Assembly: GCF_913061305.1 (NCBI RefSeq)
Contig: NZ_CAJXST010000010.1
Coordinates: 27,444-91,443, forward strand
DNA from: an uncultured Porticoccus sp.
Lineage (GTDB): Bacteria > Pseudomonadota > Gammaproteobacteria > Pseudomonadales > Porticoccaceae
DNA: 64,000 bases
Direction: 5' to 3'
Below the pieces are notes generated by a model. The model saw nothing but the letters and a program-made list of their open reading frames with translations. It did not search any database and had not been told where the DNA came from. Made by a program: the position numbers and the translations under genes. Shown piece by piece: positions 63,043 through 64,000 of the stretch (position 1 is the first letter of the stretch; each line of letters starts with the position of its first letter).

Positions 63043-63177
63043 TTGAAATTTTTTGGTCTCCGTATCAAGCGCATATCAATATGCCTGCTTGCCGGCGACA
63101 GGAACTTGATTCAGGATTGATACAAACCAGAAATTCACATGACCCAGCGCGGTTCTGTGTCCGGAGGAGTAACGACC

Positions 63178-63453
63178 ATGTCCAATGACAATGATGATTT
63201 GCGTGACCAACTGACCACGCTGCACAACGAGCTGGAAAAGGCAAAGACGCTAGACCCGGAAGACCGGGACATGCTGGGACACCTGATGTCTGACATGATC
63301 CGCATTGCCCAGGGGGATCTCGAAAAAGGGGCTCACCACGAATCGCTGCGGGAGCAACTTGAGCGAAAAGCCGGTGAATTTGATCTCGACCACCCCCGCC
63401 TGGCAGGCGTGGTGCGTCAACTGCTGGATTCACTGGGAAAAATGGGTATCTAA
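63178..63453 (+). CDS. DUF4404 small protein
   Basis: 91 aa, soluble and charged: MSNDNDDLRDQLTTLHNELE, then DPEDRDMLGHLMSDMIRIAQ and DHPRLAGVVRQLLDSLGKMG, which is the DUF4404 pattern. Function unknown; predicted helical. ATG at 63178 follows GGAGGAG by ten bases. It is divergent from amt. Confidence 0.82.
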   Translation: MSNDNDDLRDQLTTLHNELEKAKTLDPEDRDMLGHLMSDMIRIAQGDLEKGAHHESLREQLERKAGEFDLDHPRLAGVVRQLLDSLGKMGI

Positions 63454-63496: not shown

Positions 63497-63955
63497 ATGG
63501 AGAGAAGAGTCTTTGGTCTGATGGTGGTCGGCGCGCTGATTGCCGGCTGTGCTGGCTCAGACACAAATGAAGACAGCGATAACTACATTGGCTGGGTCTG
63601 TGGTGGCGCCAGGCAAAGTGATGACTGGTCCTGTGAGATGCGCGAAATCAAGGACGGTCGAGCGGTTGCCACATCAACAGTGGCGTCAGTAGGCGATCCG
63701 ACAGTTGCCGATGGACAGGACGTCAGCCCGTTTTCCGAGCGGGACCGGCCGCGCAACCTGCAGGTTGTCTCTCCGCCCAACCAGAACTGGCGAAACCAGT
63801 TACCGGGGCTTGACAGCACGCCGGTGATCCCCGAGTCGGAGTCTTCGACACTGGCAGAGCGTAAACTGAGGGAGCGGCCGCCCCGTGTCCCCGAGGCGGT
63901 GCCCTCAGTTGTGGCAAGAAAGACCTCGCCCCCGCCTGCCCCAACGCCTCAATCC
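63497..63955 (+). CDS. lipoprotein gene, cut off by adapter
   Basis: Frame open from ATG 63497 to the window end without a stop. The signal peptide VFGLMVVGALIAGC ends in a lipobox (LIAGC, Cys near residue 18) with Ala at +2, so an outer-membrane lipoprotein is predicted. The visible rest, about 135 residues, is low-complexity and Pro/Ser/Arg-rich with WVCGGARQSDDWSCEM (Cys pair) near the start. Only bases to 63955 are real; beyond, the adapter reads as LSLIHISEPTRRTPI. Domain and full length unknown. Confidence 0.78.
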
Positions 63956-64000
63956 CTGTCTCTTATACACATCTCCGAGCCCACGAGACGGACTCCTATC
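63956..64000. other. Illumina Nextera adapter contamination at contig end
   Basis: 63956-63974 is CTGTCTCTTATACACATCT, the mosaic-end complement; 63975-63989 is CCGAGCCCACGAGAC, the rest of the read-2 adapter; 63990-63997 is GGACTCCT, an i7 index; then ATC begins the P7 flank. Not genomic. Confidence 0.99.

Follow-up and report, generated by a model that had tools for sequence, protein, structure and literature searches.

The window analyzed here (the whole stretch of 64,000 nucleotides) ends on the last base of its contig, C10 (91,443 bp), and an open reading frame runs right through that end. Do the final 45 bases belong to the genome, and where is the rest of the gene? We are nearly certain of a two-part answer: positions 63956-64000 are Nextera adapter attached to a true end of C10, and the gene that runs into them is split between two contigs. 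These are the features at the end of the window:

63178..63453, + strand: upstream neighbor gene, DUF4404 (PF14357), genuine; an alternative in-frame start lies at 63139
63497..63955, + strand: genuine 5' part of a predicted lipoprotein gene, 153 codons, MERRV...PTPQS
63947..63955, + strand: CCTCAATCC, the final 9 genomic bases on C10; likely a Tn5 target duplication
63956..63974, + strand: Tn5 mosaic end CTGTCTCTTATACACATCT (adapter); exact letter match
63975..63989, + strand: CCGAGCCCACGAGAC (adapter), which we take to be the Nextera read-2 (i7) arm
63990..63997, + strand: i7 index GGACTCCT (N705)
63998..64000, + strand: ATC (adapter), presumably the first P7-side bases; C10 stops here

Adapter letters at the end of C10

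The last 45 bases of C10 are an exact Nextera read-through, in the order mosaic end, read-2 arm, index GGACTCCT (N705), and ATC, and the exact 19-base mosaic end directly abuts genomic DNA. This 19-base sequence derives from Tn5. PMC8460729 prints the oligo of the mosaic end. Table A2 of PMC7589761 lists GGACTCCT as N705 and CTCTCTAT as S502; since the oligos of that table bear a different arm, it backs the index names only. The initial annotation had read these bases as a mosaic end, a read-2 adapter, and an i7 index, with a trim point at 63955. Its coordinates and letters are exact, and the trim point is right as well: genuine DNA stops at 63955 and adapter begins at 63956. C10 needs to be trimmed after 63955. 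Leftover adapter at the end of a contig is a known kind of artefact.

Elsewhere in the window, there is no further copy of the mosaic end or of the i7 arm on either strand (up to three mismatches). The genome that C10 belongs to has 16 contigs (2.68 Mb). Allowing up to two mismatches, we found six copies of the mosaic end in it, all of them exact, at the 3' ends of C3, C4, C7, C10, C11, and C15. Every one of the six begins 42-48 bases short of the contig's 3' end, which leaves a tail of 42-48 bases. At the same threshold, no mosaic end was internal or on the opposite strand, and a control search of the genome with the reversed pattern gave no matches. On C3, C10, and C15, the mosaic end is followed by the i7 arm with GGACTCCT. 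On C4, C7, and C11, it is followed by the i5 arm and then by ATAGAGAG, which is CTCTCTAT (S502) reverse-complemented. That the six adapter ends of the entire genome show one i7 index and one i5 index is what a single dual-indexed library leaves.

All six adapter ends are 3' ends and none is a contig start; G060 has a similar distribution of exact mosaic ends (2 to 0). Other genomes with mosaic ends use both strands (55/73, 22/21, 10/12, and 1/4). No exact mosaic end was found in 16 genomes from the same genus.

A predicted lipoprotein gene split between two contigs

The open frame from 63497 crosses the adapter and reads ...PTPQS followed by LSLIHISEPTRRTPI. As the initial annotation had claimed, this tail is an artefact: LSLIHISEPTRRTPI is adapter read in frame, and it contributes 15 false residues to a window frame of 168 amino acids. 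This 168-residue frame has no match to any Pfam family at E = 0.01. Reading the translation by eye, we noticed LIAGC at residues 14-18, a possible lipobox with its cysteine near the N-terminus. A scan of the end region for promoters and terminators gave nothing above shuffled sequences.

The comparison covered 31 outward-facing ends of contigs, namely all 16 starts (that of C16 consists of N only), 9 plain 3' ends, and the 6 with adapter; among 3' ends, only that of C16 was left aside. The sole match among the adapter ends was a 9-mer between C10 and C7: CCTCAATCC is also the first 9 bases of the reverse complement of the genomic end of C7. If C10 and C7 are joined over this 9-mer, then the frame stays open and encodes a protein of 275 amino acids. 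C7 carries the remaining 122 codons at its 3' end, oriented the other way, and they hold a SPOR domain: this piece alone matches PF05036 with 29.8 bits (cut-off 21; E = 7.4e-7). SPOR is also matched in the intact homologues P0006 and P0011. In a protein search, an intact protein of 267 amino acids is identical to the joined protein at 262/267 positions, and an intact 275-residue protein from Tara data is identical at 252/275 positions. The annotated length of the predicted lipoprotein, already suspected to be wrong, should therefore change from 168 amino acids with a kit-derived tail to 275 amino acids with a SPOR domain, and the gene on C10 should be marked as partial (153 codons).

We also searched for the C10 half and the C7 half separately in 38 genomes (this one and 37 relatives). 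Counting this genome, the C10 half was matched in 14 genomes and the C7 half in 21. Thirteen relatives have the C10 half. In 11 of them (G002, G003, G005, G007, G008, G009, G010, G011, G012, G016, and G017), both halves are in one open frame on one contig, and these frames are of similar length (265-341 codons). As for the other two, the C7 half of G015 shares a frame with residues 81-153, and residues 1-88 are in another; G022 has a weak match to the C10 half (E = 3.9e-4) and no C7 half.

At the DNA level, the C10 and C7 pieces adjoin in all four of the relatives that we compared (G002, G009, G012, and G005). In G002, the C10 piece maps to 3795-3066 of the locus and the C7 piece maps to 3074-1571, so they overlap by exactly 9 bp, and the nonamer CCTCAATCC is present at the junction. 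The overlap is exact in G002 only; small length differences blur it in G009, G012, and G005. The adapter is absent at the equivalent place in independent genomes. The initial annotation had named a long-read genome that continues differently after 63955 as the way to confirm its reading, and G009, which is a one-contig genome, and the three other relatives do go on past the equivalent position, with the other half of the gene. Because relatives have the halves joined and a nearly identical intact protein exists, we conclude that the gene is whole elsewhere and was split here by assembly. The copy in the window has no SPOR half, since C10 ends before it. By sequence comparison, C10 should adjoin the reverse complement of C7, as is shown in the relatives.

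In relatives, the six adapter ends sort into three pairs that face each other, and every pair combines an i7 end with an i5 end. Besides C10 and C7, these are C3 with C11 and C4 with C15, whose ends we mapped to four relatives. The gap between C3 and C11 is 66 bp in three of them and 65 bp in G009; that between C4 and C15 is 369-379 bp. We re-mapped the ends of C3/C11 and C4/C15 on fetched stretches of two and three relatives, respectively. If the order in this genome is the same as in the relatives, then the three breaks are local and short, with gaps of -9, about 66, and about 370 bases, and not large losses. A hairpin at the C3/C11 and C4/C15 gaps was considered and rejected, as the G002 stretches have no inverted repeat of 10 bases or more there.

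The false tail is not confined to this genome. We queried a protein database with the last 40 residues of the window frame, tail included (E up to 10), and 359 proteins matched. Among the 120 matches listed, 118 contain LSLIHISEPTR and 116 contain all of LSLIHISEPTRRTPI; the two without the tail are intact homologues. The same false tail thus sits on many otherwise unrelated proteins, which agrees with the earlier claim that the peptide pollutes protein databases. Given the weak E-values, and since the tail was within the query, the search shows that the tail is common and not how common it is. Within the collection of papers searched, none contains LIHISEPTR or CLLYTSPSPRD. NCBI screens for adapters with VecScreen, and contamination still occurs (PMC7218494).

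Origin of the break and competing readings

Tn5 joins mosaic ends to staggered target positions and so duplicates a few bases (PMC5240201), and adjacent Tn5 fragments are described as sharing 9 bases or, more rarely, 8 or 10 (PMC8460729, PMC8557372). The ends of C10 and C7 share exactly 9 bases, and one has an i7 arm and the other an i5 arm, which makes it likely that one transposome produced both ends, although we are less sure of this than of the adapter and the split gene. A single transposome with one arm of each kind would have cut at 63947-63955, and the 9-bp target duplication from that cut would be left on both fragments. Most likely, reads from short inserts then ran into the adapter, which was not trimmed before assembly. 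Apparently, no read crossed the site. Poor amplification or sequencing of a G-rich strand may be the reason, since the junction is richer in C-runs than any stretch of the window: the joined junction has five runs of four or more C's in 80 bp, while the maximum over 63,875 stretches of the window is four per 80 bp. Counted on G002, the gaps at C3/C11 and C4/C15 have three and two such runs, so the argument is weaker at the first and does not hold at the second. We rejected the idea that long C-runs caused all three breaks, as the case is strong for C10/C7 only.

An alternative, which we consider unlikely, is that the adapter and the adjacency are real and the 9 bases are the overlap of two separate transpositions. 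Short overlaps of other lengths do occur: in G057, the adapter ends at the start of C149 and the end of C179 (one i7 and the other i5) overlap by exactly 14 bases, which is beyond a single Tn5 event. Across all the sets that we examined, though, there are three overlaps of 8 bases or more among adapter ends, and two of these, the C10/C7 pair and one in CAJXUF01, have precisely the 9 bases known for Tn5. We found an exact mosaic end in 6 of 97 genomes, including this one, in which 1 of the 15 pairs of different adapter ends overlaps by 9. In the five other adapter-bearing genomes, none of 9273 pairs has an exact 9-base overlap, so the pattern is rare, and we rejected the idea that 9-base pairs are a common feature. 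Overlaps of 5, 6, and 7 bases were seen 7, 3, and 1 times among all 9288 pairs, close to what chance would give (9.1, 2.3, and 0.6 expected). A between-genome control of 11,827 pairs gave 7 overlaps of five bases and none longer. In the N705 set, drawn from the 80 listed stretches with the exact 45-mer, 1 of 602 within-genome pairs overlaps by at least 5 bases, namely by 9: this is the pair from CAJXUF01, whose two sides, read apart, keep one frame open for 857 and 174 codons. Given these counts, a 9-base match is informative when it is seen, yet rare.

It is far less probable that C10 and C7 are not neighbors at all and share the 9-mer and the open frame by chance. We saw no read-level link between the two contigs, but the adjacency in relatives led us to reject a chance 9-mer: of 13 relatives that have the first half, 11 have both in one open frame, the overlap on G002 is exactly 9 bp, and the intact P0011 is nearly identical to the joined protein. 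The relatives thus contradict this reading, unless a rearrangement in the present strain falls at just that point. We can dismiss the reading of 63956-64000 as a genomic Tn5/IS50-like mobile element end in the chromosome, which has the Tn5 origin of the mosaic end in its favor, because next to the mosaic end comes either of two kit arms with one 8-base index per arm, mosaic ends are confined to contig ends, and G002 has ordinary gene sequence at the same place.

Returning to a cut by one transposome, we examined the composition of 206 genomic ends, 128 of which come from one genome. C is at the last position in a fraction of 0.52 and G is at the ninth in 0.43, which resembles the G/C pair that PMC8557372 describes for the outer positions of the 9-bp core. 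There is also a preference for C at position 11 (0.48).

Other breaks, leftover adapters, and related systems

Other contig breaks in this genome do not involve a mosaic end. The 3' end of C9 and the start of C7 overlap by 55 bases, and this overlap is unique in the genome. At its end stands CCGAGCCCACG, an 11-base piece of the i7 arm with no mosaic end beside it. The contigs would have been parted here if the i7 index primer misprimed on this genomic sequence. (There are two further genomic copies of CCGAGCCCACG, in C2 and C3, without a break.) Other breaks are at 6-base tandem repeats (CCTGTT, AACACG) and at a repeat of the unit CGTCTGCATCGG; these affect the C1 end and C10 start, the C12 end and C15 start, and the C11 start. 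Among the ends without adapter, two pairs have an overlap of exactly 55 bases, and in two pairs at tandem repeats the overlap reaches up to 55, which would fit a de Bruijn assembly with k = 55.

At least 119 stretches of genome contigs in GTDB contain the exact 45-mer from the end of C10. The 80 stretches listed have 101 mosaic ends, all of which start within 77 bases of the end of the contig or locus. In G084, a mosaic end with an i7 arm and CGTACTAG lies inside a contig of 80,948 bases (C15:77087-77105), 3.8 kb from its end.

We tentatively suggest, while thinking it somewhat less probable than the opposite, that adapter-ended contig pairs that share exactly 9 bases are in general true neighbors and preserve a record of the enzyme's cuts. 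If so, then the deposited contigs could be enough, without the reads, to put some draft genomes and split genes back together. The 9-base rule would be a cheap way to rejoin a few contigs, but it would rarely apply (1/15, 1/602, and 0/9273 pairs).

The end of C10 is alike in kind to Nextera read-through in other assemblies, which has the same letters, the same place, and the same false peptide; what differs here is that the pair of ends shares an apparent 9-bp duplication and splits one gene. The predicted protein has the same match as lipoproteins with a C-terminal SPOR domain (PF05036), and this match is on the C7 half. As described for BIGseq (PMC8460729) and for paired fragments (PMC8557372), neighboring fragments have 9 bases in common through which they can be linked, as here, and BIGseq also takes the rarer junctions of 8 and 10 bases (PMC8460729). 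BIGseq, as its authors describe it, works on mapped reads, whereas the 9-base junction between C10 and C7 is visible in deposited contigs because of the leftover adapters.
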